Shown one piece after another: positions 1,826 to 12,213 of a DNA stretch of 12,357 nucleotides. This stretch comes from Gammaproteobacteria bacterium (GTDB lineage: Bacteria; Pseudomonadota; Gammaproteobacteria; Pseudomonadales; Azotimanducaceae). Below the pieces are notes generated by a model. It was not told the DNA's origin and ran no database searches. It saw nothing but the letters and a program-made list of their open reading frames with translations. Made by a program: the position numbers and the translations under genes. Positions within the stretch are counted from its first letter, which is position 1, and each line of letters begins with the position of its first letter. The stretch covers positions 1 through 12,357 of the forward strand of contig JABIVN010000129.1 in assembly GCA_018667205.1 (NCBI GenBank). The letters run 5' to 3'.

Positions 1826-2338
1826 CTAGCTGCCCGGCGTTGGCAATACTGTGGTATCCATCGCTTCCGGTTCCAGGCCTAGTGTAATCAACACCTTGGA
1901 CATTCCCAAAAACAATCCAACACCGAGCGCTAACTCGGCGATCTCAGCATCGCTGTAGTGTTTCTTTAAGGCGGCGATCTGCGAATCGCGGAGTTGGCCG
2001 GGTAGGCCAATGATGTCATCGGTTAGCTGCAGTGCAATCGCTTCTTTTTCTTCCAGCGTCTCTTCGTACCCATCTTCTATTTGGGCAACTATACCTTCTT
2101 CCAGACCCGCTACACGAGCGGCGTCAAATCGGACGTTTTTTCAGTAGCCGCAATCGGTAATACGCGCATTGCGGATCCTGGTCATTTCTTTGACTTCCTG
2201 ACTGATCAATCCCTGCTGCCAGAACTCTGCGTAGAGATCACCGAACTTCGCAATGATGTCTGGCGTGTGACTCATGACTGTGCCGAACTCGGCTGGTGCA
2301 CCGGGTATTGCCGAGCCTATTCTGGGTGTCGTGGACAT
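1826..2338 (-). CDS. AhpD-like (carboxymuconolactone decarboxylase family) selenoprotein with CxxU motif, in-frame UGA read as Sec
   Basis: Read through the UGA at 2141-2143, this is a 170-aa AhpD-like protein, a family of all-helical thiol peroxidase/reductase-type enzymes. Residues 1-65 end RIRNARITDCGY. The next codon is UGA (residue 66), followed by KNVRFDAAR and 104 open codons that end in LGLEPEAMDTTVLPTPGS and TAG. The UGA replaces the second cysteine of the family CxxC, giving Cys63-Gly-Tyr-Sec66, so the redox pair would be a thiol/selenol. AhpD-like selenoproteins are an established bacterial selenoprotein family. A SECIS-like hairpin follows the UGA. The upstream gene's TAA overlaps this ATG (TAATG), with AGGAGA nine nt before it, so translation is probably coupled. 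The nearest alternative is a single C-to-A nonsense mutation. The absence of any other lesion and the exact position argue against decay. SelA, SelB, SelC and SelD would have to be encoded elsewhere. Confidence 0.85.
2104..2125 (-). promoter_or_regulatory. Candidate bacterial SECIS stem-loop 3' of the Sec UGA
   Basis: On the minus strand, GAC (2125-2123) pairs with GTC (2106-2104). A single G is bulged at 2122. CCGCT (2121-2117) then pairs with AGCGG (2111-2107), closing a 5-nt loop CGUGU (2116-2112). The loop begins 24 nt after the UGA and has G in its second position. Bacterial SECIS elements are known to lie within the coding sequence just 3' of the UGA, with a G in the first two loop bases. 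A further UCC/GGA pairing (2133-2131 with 2102-2100) could extend the stem past an asymmetric internal loop. Position and shape fit SelB recruitment. This was folded by eye, not by computation. Confidence 0.7.
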
Positions 2339-2760
2339 TAGCTAACTTCTCCTGTCATGGTCGCGTTCAATCGGCAAGACACATCAAAGAACGCCAGGGC
2401 TGTCAGTAGCGAAACACATCCTGCGTCGCCAAACGCCAGCTTGATGGCTTCGACTTCTTCGTCTTCAATAGCGTGGTGTTGATAAGGGATTTTTTCTGCA
2501 GCGATAAGCGCAATTTGCTCCGACGGATCGAAGGCTTCTAATCTCTGAGACCGCAGCATTGAGGATTCATCAGCAGAAATTCCGTTCACCTGCTGGCCAT
2601 GAATTTGTGCAATGCGAGCATGGCACAATGTAAAAACGCGCTCAGGTACTGCGTCGCTTGATTCAATAGCAGCAAGAAACGCGGTGTATTTCATATGAAG
2701 CGCTGGCCTTAACGCCAACGCTTCAATGAACGATTCACTATGGATGCCGATCAGACTCAA
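2338..2760 (-). CDS. AhpD/carboxymuconolactone decarboxylase-like protein lacking the redox cysteines
   Basis: A 140-aa protein with the layout of a CMD/AhpD-like domain. An N-terminal helical segment (RPALHMKYTAFLAAI, 18-32) precedes FTLCHARIAQIHGQQ (43-57). The latter matches the family pattern LxxLRVAQLNGCxxC, but Gln56 and Asn59 occupy the two cysteine positions. Remaining cysteines (46, 115, 129) are not in a CxxC. It is therefore probably not a thiol redox enzyme itself. It may be a structural partner of the AhpD-like selenoprotein encoded directly downstream. The start is a TTG at 2760, 1 nt after the stop of the preceding dehydrogenase gene. The in-frame stop at 2770-2772 limits extension and the first ATG (residue 23) would cut the domain. 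Its TAA overlaps the next ATG by one base. Fold assignment is moderately sure and function is unknown. Confidence 0.75.
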   Translation of the reverse strand: MSLIGIHSESFIEALALRPALHMKYTAFLAAIESSDAVPERVFTLCHARIAQIHGQQVNGISADESSMLRSQRLEAFDPSEQIALIAAEKIPYQHHAIEDEEVEAIKLAFGDAGCVSLLTALAFFDVSCRLNATMTGEVS

Positions 2761-2761
2761 A

Positions 2762-3892
2762 TTAGAACCCTAGCAGCCTTGCGTACCTATCGCGGTGAAA
2801 TGCCCGATTACCAAATGAGGGTTCCAGCAAGCGGGCTCGCTTGAGGTAGAAGCCTGCATCAAACTCATCAGTCATACCGATTCCACCGTGGATCTGAATT
2901 AGTTGGTTAGACATTTCATGCAAGAAATCACCGACTTTTGCCTTAGACAGGGAGCACAGCTTTGGTACGGCATCCGCGTCATCATCAATGGCCTGCAACG
3001 CCGCTTCTACACAGGATCGCGACAACTCCATCTGACCAAACAAACCGGCAGCCCTATGGCCCAAGGCCTGAAAAGACCCGATGACCTGACCAAACTGCAC
3101 TCGGGTCTTCAGATAGTCAAGTGTCATGTCAAAAGCCTGCGCGGCAGTTCCCAACATCTCGGCACCCAGACCCGCCCTCGCCCGGTCCAGAAGCGCTTCA
3201 AGAACTCGATAGCCTTGGTCAACCGTACCCAACACTGTCGTTTCACTCACCGTCACTCCATCGAAGTGAACATTTGCATAACCACGACTATCAAACGTGG
3301 TCACCGCTTCGCGGGAAACACCATCGGCACTGGCAGACACCAGAAATAGTGTAATGCCCTCTTCCCCTTCACCGCTGGTTCTTGCAGCCACCACGTAATC
3401 AGTCGCTGTCATGCCCTCATGTACAAACGTTTTGTTACCGGTCAGTTTAAAACCGGATCCAGATCTTTCGGCGACAAGCTTCGTTTTTTTAGGCGAATGC
3501 CTGGGGCCTTCATCGACCGCCAGTGTCAGTATTACACTGCCCTCTACGACTTTAGGCAGTATTGCCTGCTTTTGTTCTTCGTTGCCACCCAGGAGTACTG
3601 CTGACGCACCAACGAACGCAGATGCGAACAAAGGAGACGCCGTCAACTGTCGACCTACCTCCTCCAATATAACGCCAAACGTTAGGTATCCTAGACCCGA
3701 ACCGCCATACTGTTCAGGTACCAAAATACCGGTCCAGCCCATGTCAATCATTGCTTGCCACGTGTCGGGCGTGAATTTACTCTCGATGCCACTATCCCGC
3801 ATTTCGCGAAACTTTTGAACAGGAGACTGCTCGGTTACCCAGGATTTAGCCTGGTCCCTAATCATAGATTGTTCTTCCGTTAGTGCAGCCAT
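2762..3892 (-). CDS. Acyl-CoA dehydrogenase family protein, second subunit (376 aa)
   Basis: A flavin-dependent acyl-CoA dehydrogenase-fold protein, cytosolic, 376 aa, close to family length. The N-terminal helical domain includes MGWTGILVPEQYGGSGLG (51-68). The C-terminal domain shows RVQFGQVIGSFQALGHRAA (264-282), the FAD/subunit-contact signature, and IHGGIGMTDEFD (334-345). The mid-domain signature normally containing the SE-GAGSD substrate/flavin loop is degenerate (AVDEGPRHSP, 125-134). The helix-G glutamate of the neighbouring subunit corresponds here to alanine (LLDRARAG, 234-241), while Glu357 near the C-terminus may or may not align with the MCAD-type base. This pattern suits the less conserved subunit of a heteromeric dehydrogenase. 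ATG at 3892 has AGGG nine nt upstream, inside the 3' end of the preceding gene, and the genes are 5 nt apart. Substrate is unknown. Confidence 0.88.
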   Translation of the reverse strand: MAALTEEQSMIRDQAKSWVTEQSPVQKFREMRDSGIESKFTPDTWQAMIDMGWTGILVPEQYGGSGLGYLTFGVILEEVGRQLTASPLFASAFVGASAVLLGGNEEQKQAILPKVVEGSVILTLAVDEGPRHSPKKTKLVAERSGSGFKLTGNKTFVHEGMTATDYVVAARTSGEGEEGITLFLVSASADGVSREAVTTFDSRGYANVHFDGVTVSETTVLGTVDQGYRVLEALLDRARAGLGAEMLGTAAQAFDMTLDYLKTRVQFGQVIGSFQALGHRAAGLFGQMELSRSCVEAALQAIDDDADAVPKLCSLSKAKVGDFLHEMSNQLIQIHGGIGMTDEFDAGFYLKRARLLEPSFGNRAFHRDRYARLLGF

Positions 3893-3897
3893 CGTCG

Positions 3898-5112
3898 TTA
3901 TCCCTTTTGAGTGTTCTCGGGAAGACCGAGGATGTTCTTGGAAATGATATTATTCTGGACTTCAAACGAGCCACCGTAAATAGAAATGGCTTTGCCCCAC
4001 AGCCAGTCTTGAACGTTGTCGAGTTCTTCTTTAGTGTAGTTATCACCTTCCCAACCAACACCCTGGCTACCCATCAATTCCATGGTCAATTCAGCCTTAC
4101 CCTGAGCAATTTTTGTTGCTGAGTTCTTCAGGATCGAAGCGGCAGCACTCACCTCTACCTTGCCCCGCGCTTCCGCAGTTATTCTGTTGACGGTTAGACC
4201 GTGTGCCTCGGAATCCATCAGGTGATCGATAAGCCGTACTCTTAAATCTCCATCTGCCAGCGCGCCGGAGTCATCTACACCGACATAGTCTTTGGCGATC
4301 TGCTGAAATGATGGTTTCTTGGTGCTTCCACCGGGACCTCTGGCCTGTGTCTGACTCTGACGCTCATGTTGCAACAGTCTTTTGACAACGCTCCAGCCTT
4401 CATTCAGCGGTCCAAGCAGGTCACTCTTTTCGGCCTGGGCATTATCAAAAAAGGTATCGCAAAATGGCGAGGCACCGGATATCAATCGAATGGGTTTTGT
4501 TGACACGCCATCTTGAGCCATAGGCAACATTACAAAACTGATGCCGTCGCGTTTCTTGGCGTTTGAATCTGTTCTCACTAAAGCACCACACCACTGAGAA
4601 ATATCGGCACCGGATGTCCATGTCTTCTGACCGTTCAACTTATAGGTATCACCATCGTCTTCGGCTTTCGTAATAAGCGATGCGAGGTCTGACCCAGCGC
4701 CGGGTTCTGACAGGCCCAGGCACCAGCGGGTTTCACCGCTGGCCATACCGCGAAGGTGCTTGGCTTTCTGCTCATCGGTTCCGTATTCAAGTAGCGTTGG
4801 TCCAACCATCGTGACACCCATACCCGCCATGAGCGGTATCGGGTTAAAAGCGCCCATCTTCCCCATTTCCTGGCTAATAATTTTCGCCTCGGGATGACCA
4901 ATACCGGCACCACCAAACTCTGCCGGCCAGGTCGGTGCGCCCCAACCTTTATCTGCGAGCCGCTGCCGCCAAAGTTCAAAGTCAGCTTTCATACTGTCGT
5001 CTGCCTCACCCTCCAGGCCCATGGCGCTTCCGACAAGTGTTTTGGGGAAGTTTCCCTCTAGCCAGGTCTTTGTTGAAGCTCGAAATTCCTCGAGCGCTAC
5101 TTGCTTTGACAT
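3898..5112 (-). CDS. Acyl-CoA dehydrogenase, probable catalytic subunit (404 aa)
   Basis: An FAD-dependent enzyme expected to introduce the alpha,beta double bond into an acyl-CoA and pass electrons to ETF. Motifs: GWGAPTWPAEFGGAGIG (56-72), CLGLSEPGAGSDLAS (131-145, family signature 1), LNGQKTWTSGA (159-169), and a C-terminal IYGGSFEVQNNIISKNILG (378-396, signature 2). The MCAD-type base position in YEG is Gly here (YGG). Glu250 in LLQHERQ is the likely base, as in isovaleryl/long-chain type dehydrogenases (inference). An upstream ATG at 5235 would add 41 residues with no family resemblance. I choose ATG 5112 because MSKQVALEEFRASTKTWL looks like a normal N-terminus and GGAAGG at 5124-5119 gives a good ribosome-binding site. 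It is first in the minus-strand operon and pairs with the next dehydrogenase, resembling the alpha2beta2 dehydrogenases of steroid side-chain breakdown. Confidence 0.9.
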   Translation of the reverse strand: MSKQVALEEFRASTKTWLEGNFPKTLVGSAMGLEGEADDSMKADFELWRQRLADKGWGAPTWPAEFGGAGIGHPEAKIISQEMGKMGAFNPIPLMAGMGVTMVGPTLLEYGTDEQKAKHLRGMASGETRWCLGLSEPGAGSDLASLITKAEDDGDTYKLNGQKTWTSGADISQWCGALVRTDSNAKKRDGISFVMLPMAQDGVSTKPIRLISGASPFCDTFFDNAQAEKSDLLGPLNEGWSVVKRLLQHERQSQTQARGPGGSTKKPSFQQIAKDYVGVDDSGALADGDLRVRLIDHLMDSEAHGLTVNRITAEARGKVEVSAAASILKNSATKIAQGKAELTMELMGSQGVGWEGDNYTKEELDNVQDWLWGKAISIYGGSFEVQNNIISKNILGLPENTQKG

Positions 5113-5184
5113 GCGTTTACCTTCCATCTCGTTATATTGAAGTGTACTAAGCGAATATTTAACCCTAATAATAGGCAAATCATC

Positions 5185-5200
5185 GCCTTGGCGCCATGGC
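5185..5200. promoter_or_regulatory. Near-perfect palindrome in divergent intergenic region (candidate operator)
   Basis: GCCTTGGCGCCATGGC is a 16-bp palindrome with one mismatched pair, centred on GGCGCC. It sits roughly in the middle of the 194-bp gap between the divergently read dehydrogenase operon (ATG 5112) and NHL gene (ATG 5307), a place where a shared regulator could act on both. No regulator gene for it is visible nearby. A weak -10-like TATAAC for the minus strand lies at 5136-5131 without a clear -35. Confidence 0.35.
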
Positions 5201-5306
5201 CTTGCACCTGAACAGCTTGGTGAATCAGACATCATGGAAAAGACACCGCTTGTACAGTGAACGTACTTTCGCTACGGTCTATGCACCATCATAACGGAGA
5301 CCAGAT

Positions 5307-6341
5307 ATGTGCACCTCTCACGACGTTGATAATAGTACTGAAAGTAATGACCCCAGAGACGGTTATCAACTTGATGGCAACTGGCCAGTCTATCCAGCCG
5401 ACATGCAGTTTGAGATGGGCTCAGGTATCGCCGTCGACAAGCAAGGAATTGTCTATCTTTTCACCAGGGACCTCGAGCACTGGGCAACCCACCCACTCGC
5501 CATGAAAGACAAGATGGGTAAGAGCAGCATCTCCATGTTCACCCGCGAGGGTCAATACCTTGGTAAATGGGGACCCTCTGACGAGCAAGGCTTCGCCTTA
5601 GGCGCCCACACCCTTTATATAGAAAAAGATGGCATGTTCTGGACCACTGATCGCGATGGGCATACTGTCAAAAAATATACACCGGAAGGCGAATTGCTAC
5701 TGACGCTAGGTACCTTTGGCGAATGGGGTAACGACGATTCTCATTTTAACGGTCCTACGGCCGTCCTGGTGCAGGAAAACGGCAATATTGTGGTCGCTGA
5801 TGGATATTGGAACTCTCGACTGGTGTGGTACACCGCGGAGGGTGAATTTATTAAGTCGGTCGGTGGTTGGGGCCGAGGACCCGCGGAATTCAACACACCT
5901 CACGCAATGGCTCAGGATTCTAAAGGGAGGATTCTGGTGGCAGATCTCTGCGGCGGTAACTTTCATGATTACATGACCAAACCCGGGCAAATAGAAGCCC
6001 ACCGCACCCAGGCCGATAATGACTGTGTCCATCGAATCCAACGCCTGACGCCAGATGGAGCATACATCGATGAATGGACTCACATTACGCCACTGAGCCT
6101 GGCGACCTATGGCGACAGAGTTTACGCAAGCGACAAAATGAGCGATCTAACGATCCTTCACGAAGACACTGGCGAGGTGCTTGGCCGGGTAGAGAAAATC
6201 GCCATCTATATCCATCAACTTGCCATGGATCAGCACGGGGACTTGTACACCGCGTCGGTTTACCCTGAACATGCCGGCGAACTAAGGGGCCCGAAGGGCC
6301 CGAGCCATAGACGATGGACCCGAGCATCCCTGGCGGCCTAG
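5307..6341 (+). CDS. NHL-repeat beta-propeller protein (peptidylglycine amidating lyase-like)
   Basis: A 344-aa protein made largely of NHL-type blades. Clear blades are FTREGQYLGKWG with LGAHTLYIEKDGMFWTTDRDGH (78-119), YTPEGELLLTLGTFGEWG (124-141) with FNGPTAVLVQENGNIVVADG (147-166), and YTAEGEFIKSVGGWGRGP (175-192) with FNTPHAMAQDSKGRILVAD (195-213). Less regular repeats follow to the C-terminus. The ADGYWNSRLVWY stretch (164-175) resembles the propeller of peptidyl-alpha-hydroxyglycine alpha-amidating lyase-like proteins. Catalytic residues of that enzyme were not verified, so activity is not claimed. No signal peptide or membrane segment is seen, suggesting a cytosolic location. GGAGA at 5296-5300, 6 nt before ATG, supports the start. 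It is divergent from the dehydrogenase operon and its stop is 14 bp from the convergent oxidoreductase stop. Confidence 0.88.
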   Translation: MCTSHDVDNSTESNDPRDGYQLDGNWPVYPADMQFEMGSGIAVDKQGIVYLFTRDLEHWATHPLAMKDKMGKSSISMFTREGQYLGKWGPSDEQGFALGAHTLYIEKDGMFWTTDRDGHTVKKYTPEGELLLTLGTFGEWGNDDSHFNGPTAVLVQENGNIVVADGYWNSRLVWYTAEGEFIKSVGGWGRGPAEFNTPHAMAQDSKGRILVADLCGGNFHDYMTKPGQIEAHRTQADNDCVHRIQRLTPDGAYIDEWTHITPLSLATYGDRVYASDKMSDLTILHEDTGEVLGRVEKIAIYIHQLAMDQHGDLYTASVYPEHAGELRGPKGPSHRRWTRASLAA

Positions 6342-6355
6342 GCGCCCAACAAACG

Positions 6356-7354
6356 CTACATCTTTAACAGCTGTTTGCCAAAGTTTGCACCGGTAAACAG
6401 CCGTTTAAGTGTCGCTGGAATGTTATCGAACCCTTCCTGGATATCTTCCTTGTAAACCAGGTCGCCACTTGCAATCCAGCCTTTAAGCCGATCAAGTGCA
6501 ACGGGGTACTCCCTTTCGTACCCGCTCAACAAAAAACCTTCAATGCGAGCCTGCCTGAACACGACATTAAAGTAATTCGCTGGCCCAGCTGGCAAGGACG
6601 ATTGTTCATAACGTGAAATCCCACCGCAGATAACAACTCTTGCATGCGCTGCGATACGCGCAAGTACGTCGTTGAGAACAGGGCCACCGACATTGTCAAA
6701 AAATACATTTACGCCATTCGGACACTGTTCCTTCAATCCAGCCTTAACATTATCGTTTTTATAGTCGATGGCCGCGTCGAAGCCAAACTCATTAACGATT
6801 GCAGCACATTTATCCGGGCCACCTGCGGTACCAATGACCCTGCAACCATTGATTCTCGCAATCTGCCCGACCACAGAACCAACCGCACCGGCGGCTCCCG
6901 AGACAACCACAGTATCGCCCGGTTCCGGTTGGCCGATCCTAAGCAAGCCAAAATATGCGGTTAATCCCTGCGCGCCCAAAGGACCCAGATGGGCCGTCAG
7001 GAACTGATCATTGGGTAACTCCTGCAACGAGCGCCCAGGCAACGTCGCCAGTTCTTGCCAACCGAATGACCCCAACACTTTTTTACCAACCGGTAGACCC
7101 GGATCATTGCTTTCAACCACTTCGCCAATACCTCGGGCACCCATGACATCCCCAATCGCCGTGCCCGAGGAATAACCCGCAATAACTTCAATTTGTCCTT
7201 TTTGTGACGGCTCAAAACTTAGGCACTCTACTTTCACCCTGACCTCACCCTTACCGAGTGGCTCCACCTCCGCTTCATTGTATTTGAAATCGGTGAGTTC
7301 CAGCGCTCGCCCTCGTGGACTTGCAGCTACCAGCCATTGTCGATTTGTCGTCAT
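6356..7354 (-). CDS. NADP-dependent medium-chain oxidoreductase (prostaglandin reductase / LTB4 12-hydroxydehydrogenase-like)
   Basis: A 332-aa zinc-free member of the medium-chain dehydrogenase/reductase superfamily, predicted to reduce the C=C bond of enones or enals with NADPH in the cytosol. Visible features are the N-terminal GroES-like domain (residues 1-120, with FEPSQKGQI near 48-56 and GDVMGARGIGEVVES at 68-82), LGPLGAQGLTAYFGLLRIG (123-141), and the nucleotide-binding VSGAAGAVGSVVGQIA (151-166). GTAGGPDKC (175-183) follows, with a lysine at the usual NADPH-phosphate contact. IDYKNDNVKAGL and VFFDNVGG are also typical of PTGR/CurA-type proteins. No structural-zinc cysteine cluster is present. 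ATG 7354 is preceded only by a weak GAGA at about 10 nt. It probably forms a single-gene unit and converges on the NHL gene. Substrate is unknown. Confidence 0.92.
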   Translation of the reverse strand: MTTNRQWLVAASPRGRALELTDFKYNEAEVEPLGKGEVRVKVECLSFEPSQKGQIEVIAGYSSGTAIGDVMGARGIGEVVESNDPGLPVGKKVLGSFGWQELATLPGRSLQELPNDQFLTAHLGPLGAQGLTAYFGLLRIGQPEPGDTVVVSGAAGAVGSVVGQIARINGCRVIGTAGGPDKCAAIVNEFGFDAAIDYKNDNVKAGLKEQCPNGVNVFFDNVGGPVLNDVLARIAAHARVVICGGISRYEQSSLPAGPANYFNVVFRQARIEGFLLSGYEREYPVALDRLKGWIASGDLVYKEDIQEGFDNIPATLKRLFTGANFGKQLLKM

Positions 7355-7605: not shown

Positions 7606-8130
7606 ATGAGAAGCAACAACAAAAGAGACCAGATCCTGGAAGCAGCACTGCGGGTGGTGGAAGAAAAAGGCGCCAATCACCTGACCATAGACGCCGTCGC
7701 TGCCTGTGCCAATTTTTCCAAAGGCGGGGTTTTGTATCACTTTCCCTCAAAAAAAGCCCTACTAAGCGGCATGCTTGATTGCCTGATTGAGGCTAACGAA
7801 AAAAGAATAAACGCACTGGGGAACAGTGACAATATTCTTGCTGCGTATTTACACAAAGAAAACCAAATGACCGCAGCAGAACGTCGGGCATCACAGGCGC
7901 TGCTTGCCGCTGCGGCAGAAGACCCCGAACTTTTGATACCAGCGAAAGACTATATGAAGCGCCTGGTCAACGAAATTTCGCAAAGCAGTCAGAAACCCAC
8001 AGAAGCACTCACATTACTCCTTGCCCGTGAAGGAATAAGATTTCTTGATATCCTGGAAATAAACCCAATGAGTTCGAAACAAACCCGAGAAGTCGTCGAA
8101 CAGCTAAGTCAACGAGCACAGGAGGTTTAG
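7606..8130 (+). CDS. TetR/AcrR-family transcriptional repressor
   Basis: A 174-aa regulator with the typical N-terminal helix-turn-helix: KRDQILEAALRVVEEKG (6-22) then LTIDAVAACANFSKGGVLYHF (26-46) and PSKKALLSGML (47-57). The C-terminal two thirds is helical and alanine-rich, as in ligand-binding/dimerisation domains (QALLAAAAEDPELL, 101-114). Ligand is unknown. GGAGAAG at 7594-7600 precedes ATG by 5 nt. It is the first gene of a three-gene operon. Its TAG overlaps the ribosome-binding region of the adaptor gene, which starts one base later. The palindrome at 7563-7584 suggests it represses its own operon, so the whole pump would be induced when an effector binds. Confidence 0.93.
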   Translation: MRSNNKRDQILEAALRVVEEKGANHLTIDAVAACANFSKGGVLYHFPSKKALLSGMLDCLIEANEKRINALGNSDNILAAYLHKENQMTAAERRASQALLAAAAEDPELLIPAKDYMKRLVNEISQSSQKPTEALTLLLAREGIRFLDILEINPMSSKQTREVVEQLSQRAQEV

Positions 8131-8131
8131 C

Positions 8132-9169
8132 GTGAAGCGAATCGGCGGCCTTGCTCTGGTTTTTATGCTCATCGGTTGTTCGGATAGAACCCCTCCCGAA
8201 CCCGTTTCACAAAATATCCGACCCGCAAAACTGATGACCGTAACGAGTCAGGTCGACGGTGTTAGGCACCAGTTCACAGCACGGCTTGAGGCCCTGCAAT
8301 CGATTGATCTTTCGTTCGAGATCGGCGGCCCGCTGCACGAGATGCTCGTCAGGGAAGGTGAAAGCATCAAAACTGGTTCAATGATCGCTTCGCTTGATCC
8401 AACTGAATTCCAACTCGCTGTGCAGGAAGCTAAGGTCCAGCTTAAACTCGCTGTCCAGGACCTAACTCGCAAGCGCCAGGTACTGGCAGAAAACGGTATC
8501 GCTAAATCTGCGGTGGAAGACGCGCAATCCAACTACGAGCTTCAACGAGTCCGGCTGAACAAAGCGAAAGAACGACTGAGCGATACTCGAATATACGCTC
8601 CCTTTGGCGCTTACGTATCGCGACGATACTTTGATACTTTCGTCAACGTTACCCCGGGCGCGCCTATCGTAAAATTACATGACCTGACGCAGTTGCAGGT
8701 CATCATGAATATTCCGGAAAACCTGGTTGCCACAGCGGGCGCAGACGAAATATTTCGAGCCTGGGTAGAATTCTCCTTTGCCCCGGGAAGACAGTTTGAA
8801 ATGTCCTACTATGAAAACCGGGGCGAAGCTGAATCACTTGCGCAGACCTATGAAGTGTCCTTCGTGATGGATAAACCGGAGGGGCTTAATCTACTGCCGG
8901 GCATGACTGCTTCGGCAACAATCGAAATGAAAAAAACGAACGACGCGTCGATCCTGCTGCCGTCCTCTTCACTGGTGCCTACCCCCGATAATAAACTTGC
9001 TGTCTGGATCTTTGATCCTGCCACTCAACTCGTGAGTCGCCGCGTGATCGAGTCCGGTGCTCCCACTCAAGCGGGTGTTCCGGTGACCGGGGGCCTTCAG
9101 ACAGGGGAACAAATTGTGGTGGCTGGTAGCAGTCAACTTCAAGAAGGCATGCAGGTACGTCCCCTCTAA
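8132..9169 (+). CDS. RND efflux periplasmic adaptor lipoprotein (membrane fusion protein, HlyD/AcrA-like)
   Basis: A 345-aa periplasmic adaptor linking the RND pump to an outer-membrane channel. The N-terminus MKRIGGLALVFMLIGC is a lipoprotein signal peptide with lipobox LIGC, giving Cys16 as the lipidated residue. Serine at +2 predicts outer- rather than inner-membrane sorting by the usual rule, which is unusual for an adaptor. A lipoyl half-motif follows (GGPLHEMLVREGESIKTG, 65-82, with SLDPTEF to 93). A coiled-coil hairpin (about 94-150) comes next, then the second lipoyl half (RIYAPFGAYVSRR, 153-165, with APIVKLHDL at 177-185) and beta-barrel/membrane-proximal segments ending LQEGMQVRPL. 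The start is GTG at 8132, fixed by AGGAGG at 8120-8125 with a 6-nt gap. Its TAA overlaps the pump ATG by one base, implying translational coupling. Confidence 0.93.
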   Translation: MKRIGGLALVFMLIGCSDRTPPEPVSQNIRPAKLMTVTSQVDGVRHQFTARLEALQSIDLSFEIGGPLHEMLVREGESIKTGSMIASLDPTEFQLAVQEAKVQLKLAVQDLTRKRQVLAENGIAKSAVEDAQSNYELQRVRLNKAKERLSDTRIYAPFGAYVSRRYFDTFVNVTPGAPIVKLHDLTQLQVIMNIPENLVATAGADEIFRAWVEFSFAPGRQFEMSYYENRGEAESLAQTYEVSFVMDKPEGLNLLPGMTASATIEMKKTNDASILLPSSSLVPTPDNKLAVWIFDPATQLVSRRVIESGAPTQAGVPVTGGLQTGEQIVVAGSSQLQEGMQVRPL

Positions 9170-12100
9170 TGATGAACTTAGCCCAATTCGTTATTAAGCG
9201 ACCCATCTATGGCTGGATTCTGGCACTGGCTTGCCTGTTCGGTGGGATACACGGAATCGATAACATCGGACGTCTGGAAGACCCCGACTTCCCAATCAAG
9301 CACGCTTACATTATAACCACCTACCCTGGCGCATCGGCGGAAGAAGTCGAGCAGGAGGTCACTGACACAATAGAGAAGGCACTGCAGGAACTTCCCTCAG
9401 TGTTGACGCTAAAATCAAAGTCGGTGCCTGGACGATCCGAAATACAGGTCGAGCTACTCGAAGAATTTGGCAAAGGTGATATTCCGCAGGCTTATGATGA
9501 AATGCGGCGACGTGTCTCTGAAGCTCAGATGCGGTTACCACCCGGCGTTGATACCCCGCTCGTCGAGGACGACTTCGGGGATGTCTACGGCATCCTTTAC
9601 GCCGTTAAAGCGCAAGGTTACTCGGACGCGGAGCTTCACGACATCGCAAAAGAGCTCTCCACCCAACTTAAGCTTGTACCTAACGTCGCCAAGGTCAGCA
9701 CCAGTGGATTGCCGTTCGAGGCCATTTACATTGAAATTAATGAAGACAGACTCACCAGACTCGGGCTTTCTATCGATGACATTGCTGCGAAAATTCATCT
9801 CGAGAACCAAGTTGTCGGCGCTGGATCTGCACTGTTTGATGGCCGGCGCCTGAGAATTGCGCAACCTTCCACCATAGGAAGTGTCGAGGAACTCAAGGAA
9901 ATGAAAATCGGCACCCCCGGCTCTACCGAGATGATCCGGCTGGGTGACGTGACGAGTATCACCCGAACTTCGCTTGAAGCACCTTTTGAAATCGTCCGGC
10001 TAAATGGTGAACAGGTATTCACTTTTTCTGTGTCAGTGACACCAGGTCAGAACGTTGTCGCAGTTGGCAAAGATATAGACCGAAAGGTTCAGCAAATTGC
10101 GGAACAGCTTCCAATTGGCATCATCATTGAACCCATTTACAAACAGCACACGGCAGTGGAACTCGCCATCACTAACTTTCTTAAGAACCTGGGGATCTCC
10201 GTACTCACCGTCATCATCGCGCTGAACCTCTTCATGGGCTGGCGAGCAGGGACGGTGGTCGGCGTTGTTCTATTTCTGACCGTCATGGGAACCATCGAAA
10301 TCATGTGGATCATGGGGGTAGAGTTACAACGAATCTCGCTGGGCGCGCTCATGTTAGCGATGGGCATGCTGGTGGACAACGGCATTGTTATCGCTGAAGG
10401 CATGGTCGTCGGAGTCCGGCGCGGCTTGACCCCCCAGAATGCGGCTATCCAATCCGTCGCGCGAACCCAATATGCACTTCTCGGCGCCACTATTATTGGC
10501 ATCCTGGCGTTCGCGCCGATTAGCCTGTCTGATGACAACAGCGGACACTTTTTAGTGTCCCTTTTCCAGGTGGTAGCAATCTCTTTAATGCTTTCCTGGT
10601 TGCTAGCGATCACCATCGTGCCACTGTTAGGCAATATTCTATTAACGTCGGTGTCACCGATCGCAGATGGAAACCTGTATCAAACCTGGTACTTCAAGGC
10701 CTATAAAAGCCTGATTAGTTTCGGGCTTCGCCGCGCATGGCTTTCGGCCGTCATCATCATCGCTATTACGAGCGCGTGCCTCTTTTCAATGAAGTTCGTA
10801 AAAACGAGTTTCTTCCCAACCAACAATACACCGCTATTTTTTGTTGATTATCGCTTGCCTGAGGGGACCGACATCATCACAACTTCGCGCGACTTAGTAG
10901 AACTGGAGTCAAAAATACTCCTGGTCGAAGGCGTCACGAAAACAGTGAGTTTCATCGGCCGAGGCTCGCCAAGGTTTACCTCGATGACTCAACCAGAACA
11001 ACCAAATCCTGCCTACGCTCGGCTCGTGATTGAATCAGCGGACGTCAGGAATTTAAATGAACAGATGAACGCCGTAAAAAAACTGTTTGTAGATAACCGG
11101 CCCGATGCGGAAGTGATGGTTACTCGAGCTCAGTTTTCCCCTGGCAGTACCTCTAAAATTGAAATACGCTATTCTGGCCCGGACATCACCGTTTTAAGGC
11201 AACTCGCTGAACAGACACTCGCTGTTTACCTTGACCACAACCTGATCGATAGGAAGACCGACTGGAGGGCCCAATCACTGCAACTGGCCCCTCAATTCAA
11301 TGAAGCCAATGCGAGGCTCGCTGGAATAACCAGAAATGACCTTGCGAAGTCCCTCGCCTACAACACTCATGGTATCCAAATCGGGTTAATTCGAGACAGT
11401 GACAAGCTCGTCCCTATTATCGCTCGCGCGCCTGATGCCGAACGAATTGATTTGCGCGGACTGCAGACCCGCCAGGTCTGGAGCGCCACCCAACGCGAGT
11501 TTATTCCTATCACCCAGGTGGTCAGTGAATTCCGTTTAGAACCAGAGAACACCACCATCTTTCGTCGCAATCAAATCAGAACGATTACCGCGCAGGCAAA
11601 CCCTCCAGAAGGCCACAACGTCAATTTGTTCTTCCAAACGGTAAAACAAGACGTGGAAGCCCTCAAACTGCCACCGGGCTATACCAGAGAATGGGGAGGT
11701 GAGTTCGAAAACGACAAAATGGCTAACGAGTCACTCGGGGAACGTATGCCAACGGCTTTTGCGCTGATGTTCTTTATCACCGTTCTTATGTTCGGCGCGC
11801 TTAAGCAACCCATCGTTATCTGGCTAACAGTACCCATGACGCTGTGCGGCGTCGCTGTAGGCCTATTAGTGACTGATCTGCCGCTGACGTTTCCTTCAAT
11901 GCTAGGGATTTTAAGTCTTTCCGGCATGTTGATTAAAAACTGTATCGTGCTGGTCGATGAGATCGATAAACGCTTGGCTGAGGACAATCCCACGTTAGAG
12001 ACCATGATATCGGCAAGCCTAAGTCGCCTTCGACCCGTGATGCTCGCAGCACTGACCACTATTTTCGGCATGTCTCCGCTGTTAACAGATGCTTTTTTCA

Positions 12101-12213
12101 GGGAAATGGCGGTGTGTGTTATGAGTGGCTTGATGTTTGCAACGTTACTGACGCTGATCGCTGTGCCAGTATTTTATCGAATAGCGCTGGGTTCTAGAAT
12201 CCGAGCGGCCTAA
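9169..12213 (+). CDS. RND-family efflux transporter permease (HAE1-like)
   Basis: A 1014-aa inner-membrane proton-driven exporter with the duplicated RND plan: TM1 (about 10-28), a large periplasmic loop, TM2-6 (about 330-500), TM7 (about 522-540), a second loop, and TM8-12 (about 860-1005). Family signatures include LEDPDFPIKHAYIITTYPGA (36-55) and AYDEMRRRVSEAQMRLPPGV (108-127). In TM4, MLVDNGIVIAEG keeps one proton-relay aspartate (Asp403), while the second position is Asn404. In TM10, MLIKNCIVLVDE supplies Lys923. The DN rather than DD pair occurs in several RND subgroups, so it is not taken as inactivation. A second ATG follows directly at 9172. It is the last gene of the TetR-adaptor-pump operon, and no TolC-like gene follows, so a shared outer-membrane channel is implied. 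The exported substrate is unknown. Confidence 0.95.
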   Translation: MMNLAQFVIKRPIYGWILALACLFGGIHGIDNIGRLEDPDFPIKHAYIITTYPGASAEEVEQEVTDTIEKALQELPSVLTLKSKSVPGRSEIQVELLEEFGKGDIPQAYDEMRRRVSEAQMRLPPGVDTPLVEDDFGDVYGILYAVKAQGYSDAELHDIAKELSTQLKLVPNVAKVSTSGLPFEAIYIEINEDRLTRLGLSIDDIAAKIHLENQVVGAGSALFDGRRLRIAQPSTIGSVEELKEMKIGTPGSTEMIRLGDVTSITRTSLEAPFEIVRLNGEQVFTFSVSVTPGQNVVAVGKDIDRKVQQIAEQLPIGIIIEPIYKQHTAVELAITNFLKNLGISVLTVIIALNLFMGWRAGTVVGVVLFLTVMGTIEIMWIMGVELQRISLGALMLAMGMLVDNGIVIAEGMVVGVRRGLTPQNAAIQSVARTQYALLGATIIGILAFAPISLSDDNSGHFLVSLFQVVAISLMLSWLLAITIVPLLGNILLTSVSPIADGNLYQTWYFKAYKSLISFGLRRAWLSAVIIIAITSACLFSMKFVKTSFFPTNNTPLFFVDYRLPEGTDIITTSRDLVELESKILLVEGVTKTVSFIGRGSPRFTSMTQPEQPNPAYARLVIESADVRNLNEQMNAVKKLFVDNRPDAEVMVTRAQFSPGSTSKIEIRYSGPDITVLRQLAEQTLAVYLDHNLIDRKTDWRAQSLQLAPQFNEANARLAGITRNDLAKSLAYNTHGIQIGLIRDSDKLVPIIARAPDAERIDLRGLQTRQVWSATQREFIPITQVVSEFRLEPENTTIFRRNQIRTITAQANPPEGHNVNLFFQTVKQDVEALKLPPGYTREWGGEFENDKMANESLGERMPTAFALMFFITVLMFGALKQPIVIWLTVPMTLCGVAVGLLVTDLPLTFPSMLGILSLSGMLIKNCIVLVDEIDKRLAEDNPTLETMISASLSRLRPVMLAALTTIFGMSPLLTDAFFREMAVCVMSGLMFATLLTLIAVPVFYRIALGSRIRAA

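Follow-up and report, generated by a model that had tools for sequence, protein, structure and literature searches.

Bacterial proteins of the AhpD/CMD superfamily in which selenocysteine (Sec) occupies the second position of a CxxC motif are known from a 2005 report on the Sargasso Sea (PMC1088965) and a 2008 report on Global Ocean Sampling (GOS; PMC2398784), and several AhpD-type families are enumerated in a 2026 review (PMC13188914), as far as the accessible portions of these sources go. The marine sets (AhpD-like, COG2128, CxxU; CMD domain-containing and AhpD-like 2, PF02627, CxxU) combine this Sec with a bacterial Sec insertion sequence (SECIS). The same combination is predicted for a gene carrying one in-frame UGA on the minus strand of contig JABIVN010000129.1, a 12,357-nucleotide stretch (the window) from the gammaproteobacterial assembly GCA_018667205.1 (family Azotimanducaceae). 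There is very little doubt, on comparative grounds, that the gene encodes a selenoprotein, the UGA at codon 66 being decoded as Sec by SelB and tRNA-Sec via a hairpin within the gene. Unlike the window's clade, in which a presumably inactive AhpD-fold partner is encoded next to the selenoprotein, the marine reports, in their accessible parts, mention no such partner.

The helical fold of the selenoprotein is common to PA0269 and to Mycobacterium tuberculosis AhpD, and the Glu, Cys, Tyr and second redox residue of PA0269 are in register with it; it differs from both in that Sec replaces the second Cys and Arg the relay His, and in its partner gene. Its best NCBIfam matches after read-through are TIGR01926 (peroxidase-related enzyme, 31.7 bits) and NF053654 (YciW-related (seleno)protein, 31.4 bits), yet it stays far under the curated cut-offs of both (81.8 and 310 bits). 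Its Pfam PF02627 (CMD) score of 20.8 bits is likewise under the gathering cut-off of 23, and PF02627 is assigned to many of its database relatives. Judged by homologues and by the predicted fold, the selenoprotein is a member of the CMD/AhpD superfamily.

The frame contains a single TGA (codon 66, 2143-2141), followed by 104 further sense codons and a TAG, as had been noted in a sequence-only reading of this DNA, which placed the UGA at the second Cys of an AhpD/CMD-type CxxC; the coordinates hold, with the addition, unstated there, that the gene lies on the minus strand, the plus strand of 1826-2338 being full of stops and without an open frame in register. The motif around the UGA reads D-C63-G-Y-U66-K-N-V-R70, and codon 66 corresponds to the second Cys of CxxC in full-length homologues. 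As for the good start signals seen in the same reading, an AGGAG lies ahead of the ATG, which shares one base with the TAA of the preceding partner gene. The reading expected automatic annotation to truncate the protein to 65 aa; the relatives in the protein collection searched mostly lack the other end instead, being downstream fragments. Among the 120 of 194 homologues listed, 70 do not exceed 125 aa, and the first residues of 64 among them are (M/V)RF, which corresponds to a start at residue 69, three codons past the UGA. In one database relative (P0004), Trp takes the place of Sec, and what was translated there is most likely the same UGA, under a code in which TGA means Trp.

Orthologues of at least 53% identity are present in 45 of the 206 genomes searched in the window's family, the window's included (identity range 53-99%); codon 66 is TGA in 43 and TGC in two. 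The same TGA occurs in four gammaproteobacterial metagenome-assembled genomes (MAGs; L013-L016), one named 'K189A clade', and the differences on either side of it are for the most part third-position ones. Together with a relative of the partner protein (P0140) that bears the name 'Azotimanducaceae', these MAGs suggest that the host is probably a marine gammaproteobacterium near that group. In wider draws, which count the own genome, the gene is rare, being found in 6 of 369 genomes of the class (match E ≤1e-8) and in 17 of 293 of the order (E ≤1e-15), while the 21 alignable loci outside the family have Cys at the site in 20 cases and TGA in one (G091, 27% identical). Relaxed selection downstream of the UGA had been named beforehand as a potential refutation; instead, the ratio of non-synonymous to synonymous substitution (dN/dS; Nei-Gojobori method, at most 100 codons past the UGA) is 0.06-0.27 between the window and L120-L123 and L100, the comparison with L096 being saturated, and 0.06-0.15 in six further pairs. 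By this measure, purifying selection acts on the codons downstream of the UGA. The orthologue L094 (G657, 6725-7318, plus strand) has about 28 extra residues in mid-protein, which split the match, and relatives searched for in viral contigs were not found.

In the 43 TGA loci, the UGA is followed by a helix (columns 21-27 with 33-39) closed by a five-base loop, CGUGN, starting 24 nt after the UGA; the stem in the window contains a bulged G. The published bacterial SECIS model, in the accessible part of PMC13188914, has a loop of 3-9 nt with G in the first two loop positions, a spacing of 16-37 nt and a minimum free energy (MFE) of ≤-7.5 kcal/mol, and the hairpin agrees with it throughout, the MFE being ≤-7.5 in 43/43 loci. 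Over 41 distinct rows, 94.1% of the pairing cells are paired, versus 86.2 in shuffles, and the covariation score is 0.321 versus 0.162, a value that no shuffle out of 500 reached; when the partner strand is shifted by 1-3 columns, pairing falls to 37-60%. Pairs 27-33 (CG 25, UA 16) and 24-36 (CG 26, UA 13, others two) both connect third codon positions, while the outer two pairs each fail in 8 of the 41 rows. As far as the alignment tells, the hairpin pairs are preserved via paired synonymous changes; for comparison, no more than 19 of the 42 hairpin cells are paired in six Cys loci.

The window's genome (3.2 Mb, 614 contigs, 69% complete) carries selA and selB side by side on contig C238 and selD on C94, all above curated cut-offs. 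The sel genes looked for in the host are, therefore, present save for selC, which was seen in congeners only: tRNA-Sec scores above the gathering threshold in 9 of the 17 genomes of the genus, the window's among the 17. Rfam's two weak selC matches in the window's genome turned out to be tRNA-Leu and tRNA-Arg by ARAGORN. Since selA is found in 172/206 family genomes, its co-occurrence with the Sec form (38/43 TGA genomes) is uninformative inside the family; among the nine Cys-form genomes, selA occurs in the two that belong to the family and is lacking in the seven from elsewhere. Thus, the unannotated selenoprotein with Cys-Gly-Tyr-Sec proposed from the sequence is borne out by Cys at residue 66 in the full-length homologues and the two TGC orthologues, by the hairpin, the sel genes, the conserved TGA and purifying selection.

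Two more CMD-type genes of the window's genome, about 30% identical to the selenoprotein, each carry at this site an in-frame TGA that a strong hairpin directly follows, and many other one-TGA genes of CMD type are found across the family (e.g. G404:C14, G824:C300, G749:C35). AhpD-like selenoproteins probably form several subfamilies there.

Around the active site, Glu51 and Cys63 are present in 49/49 compared proteins and the Cys/Sec position is retained, whereas the position of the AhpD relay His, termed invariant within the protein set of PMC3141380 (in its accessible part), is Arg70 in all 49. Arg also stands there in 19 of the 21 more distant loci outside the family (His in two), so that Arg70 marks a wider branch, and its use as a mark of the selenoprotein subfamily alone was ruled out. 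The AhpD peroxidase relay set (Glu, Cys, His/Tyr, Cys, His) is, therefore, incomplete, and peroxidase activity should not be assumed, because the catalytic His of AhpD is replaced by Arg. The peroxide chemistry proposed in the sequence-only reading goes beyond this evidence.

The partner gene, absent from the sequence-only reading, directly precedes the selenoprotein gene. Its product in the window has no Pfam match; in the partner family, 15 of 33 members match PF02627 at E ≤1 (best 2.9e-7). The predicted model of the partner (predicted local distance difference test 85.8) retrieves with Foldseek only CMD/AhpD structures among the 30 best rows, at query TM-scores of 0.62-0.75, and the partners in other loci are about 22-28% identical to the Sec protein. 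The residue at the Sec position is Cys in none of 46 partners and Glu in 32; the first Cys is retained in 24 of the 46, and in none of the 12 from the window's genus. A partner profile has matches at E ≤2.8e-26 in all 45 genomes that possess the Sec/Cys gene and nowhere among the remaining 161; below these, from E 4e-13 onwards, come other CMD proteins, many of which have one TGA. The two genes adjoin in 43 of the 45 genomes; in G660 each sits at the end of a contig, and G712 has them on separate contigs. A partner is also present in the distant Cys relatives L076-L078 and, weakly, in L079. The partner, which lacks the second active-site cysteine, appears to be integral.

With respect to the origin of the Sec form, two trees were computed. 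In the larger one (98 rows, short search), the 43 Sec proteins form one clade (approximate likelihood-ratio support, SH-aLRT, 98), whose sister group consists of three Cys proteins (P0003 and both family Cys orthologues) inside a larger Cys family; in the smaller one (49 rows, few Cys rows), the two family Cys orthologues are nested inside the Sec clade. Because of its sampling, the larger tree is preferred, and a single Cys-to-Sec change would be the simplest history, in agreement with the trend described in the accessible part of PMC1794560. The change from Cys to Sec would thus have happened inside a single gammaproteobacterial family; reversion to Cys at a later time may have taken place, since the smaller tree nests the Cys orthologues within the Sec clade.

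The explanation that best fits the whole of these observations is a selenol-thiol redox enzyme acting with an inactive AhpD-fold partner, to which a probability of about 0.8 can be given. SelB with tRNA-Sec would decode UGA66 under the direction of the hairpin in the coding region. The product is quite probably an AhpD/CMD-fold redox enzyme whose Cys63-Gly-Tyr-Sec66 pair would alternate between the selenol/thiol and the selenenylsulfide states, with Glu51 and Arg70 at the positions of the relay Glu and His; an organic hydroperoxide or a disulfide is a first guess for its substrate. The enzyme would work jointly with the AhpD-fold protein encoded upstream, and the likeliest arrangement, at roughly even odds, is a hetero-oligomer whose inactive chain gives the site for substrate or reductant its shape. 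A bolder and rather doubtful proposal is that of one obligate heteromeric selenoenzyme, in which an Arg-bearing selenol subunit and a dedicated inactive Glu subunit carry out a chemistry beyond plain peroxide reduction.

Several observations weigh against this explanation or parts of it. Namely, selC was not found in the window's genome, which is 69% complete, and selA is without a match (E ≤1e-30) in 5/43 TGA genomes (G719, G720, G763, G793 and G799). As for the hairpin, its innermost pair is kept in the MFE fold of 42 nt for 38 of the 43 TGA loci; its energy in these loci is hardly below a null of synonymous-codon shuffles (mean z -0.48, compared with +0.47 in 6 Cys loci and -1.97 in 13 loci of TGA paralogues); and tree-corrected covariation yields only three independent supported contrasts per pair (3/3 and 2/3 concordant), too sparse a number and non-significant. 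Because the energies gave little, the case for a SECIS is built on covariation and on the fit to the model. Finally, the fold matches of the partner have weak E-values (≥0.017, none ≤0.001), and it is from co-occurrence alone that we infer complex formation.

Alternatives to Sec decoding have to account for the same data. Most gene callers would terminate the gene at the UGA, and the source genome is a MAG in 614 contigs, so that a true stop, whether by pseudogene formation, recent nonsense mutation or an error of sequencing or assembly, comes to mind; however, the same TGA is shared by 43/45 orthologues and is followed by codons with low dN/dS, which therefore makes a pseudogene or an error very unlikely, and, with the covarying hairpin and the sel genes of the genome also opposing it, the chance of a true stop is negligible. 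Hardly more credible is the reading of the UGA as Trp or another standard amino acid, by a change of code or by programmed readthrough without Sec. The Trp listed for P0004 and the fact that none of the ten genes of the window ends in TGA would agree with it, but TGA terminates 7/22 long open reading frames in the examined pieces of the window's genome (some pieces overlap) and 26/69 in congeners; it is thus a normal stop and has not been reassigned. Moreover, the selenoprotein gene itself uses TGG for Trp, homologues have Cys at the site, and the SECIS-like hairpin and the sel genes speak against it as well.

Other alternatives concern the function. An ordinary AhpD-type alkylhydroperoxidase, using Sec for speed and acting alone, with a neighbour gene linked to it by history only, would share its fold and four of the five relay residues (Glu, Cys, Tyr, Cys/Sec) with PA0269, which weakly reduces H2O2 according to the accessible part of PMC3141380. 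It is nonetheless unlikely in view of the Arg that replaces the relay His in 49/49 proteins and of a partner found in 45/45 genomes with the gene and 0/161 without it, including one in which the partner is on another contig. The AhpD-fold debrominase Bmp8 uses Cys on halogenated compounds, and the selenol might act likewise in a reductive dehalogenase-like enzyme; yet Bmp8 is structurally no closer than peroxidase-type structures and the window revealed no recognisable halogenation gene, which makes this proposal highly improbable.

The coordinates of the features are collected in table 1. Both acyl-CoA dehydrogenase genes lie directly upstream in 11/45 loci, every one of them from the window's genus, the remaining neighbours being variable, and a general link to acyl-CoA dehydrogenases was rejected for this reason. 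An NHL-repeat protein gene (5307-6341, plus strand) adjoins the likely operon and has the same position in L120, L121 and L122, while genes for a TetR regulator, a membrane fusion protein and a resistance-nodulation-division efflux pump follow one another at 7606-12213 (plus strand) and look ordinary.

Table 1. Features of the locus and related genes (window coordinates unless a contig is named)
Feature	Position	Strand	Remarks
Selenoprotein gene (predicted)	1826..2338	minus	ATG at 2338, UGA = codon 66, TAG 1828-1826; 170 codons
In-frame UGA, putatively read as selenocysteine	2141..2143	minus	residue 66, second position of C-G-Y-U
SECIS-like hairpin	2105..2123	minus	columns 21-39 from U of UGA; window loop CGUGU
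AGGAG, likely ribosome binding site of selenoprotein gene	2349..2353	minus	10 bases 5' of ATG
Partner gene, AhpD-fold protein (predicted)	2338..2760	minus	140 aa, without CxxC; listed start TTG, true start uncertain
Acyl-CoA dehydrogenase 1	2762..3892	minus	upstream, likely operon; arrangement in window's genus only
Acyl-CoA dehydrogenase 2	3898..5235	minus	upstream, likely operon; arrangement in window's genus only
Further CMD-type TGA gene L072	about 5454-4882 of G000:C66 (window's genome)	minus	
Further CMD-type TGA gene L073	1-297 of G000:C195 (window's genome)	plus	cut by contig end

Because AhpD-like selenoproteins, marine ones included, were already known, as the sequence-only reading had stated, the novelty of the protein itself is lowered: it is a known member if the GOS family AhpD-like 1, the alignments of which are given as figures, contains the clade, and the novelty would then lie in the pairing with an inactive partner alone. 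In the accessible open-licence PubMed Central literature, no mention was found of a selenoprotein paired with an inactive AhpD-fold protein, nor any report of an experimental function of AhpD-like selenoproteins; the terms AhpD, CMD and carboxymuconolactone are absent from the main text of the deep-Sep paper. Animal Sestrin2, with two domains in one chain and a role in mTORC1 signalling, offers an analogy only, with no special kinship; if true, the obligate heteromer would correspond, in two chains, to the active and the inactive half of Sestrin.

Since most entries of the family in the protein collection searched are fragments beginning three codons past the Sec, ordinary annotation misses its catalytic residue. 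The clade would provide a clean case of Cys-to-Sec exchange, in which synonymous sites supply part of the SECIS hairpin and Cys sister sequences allow comparison, and its strict association with an inactive AhpD-fold partner provides a testable lead on the role of AhpD-like selenoproteins.
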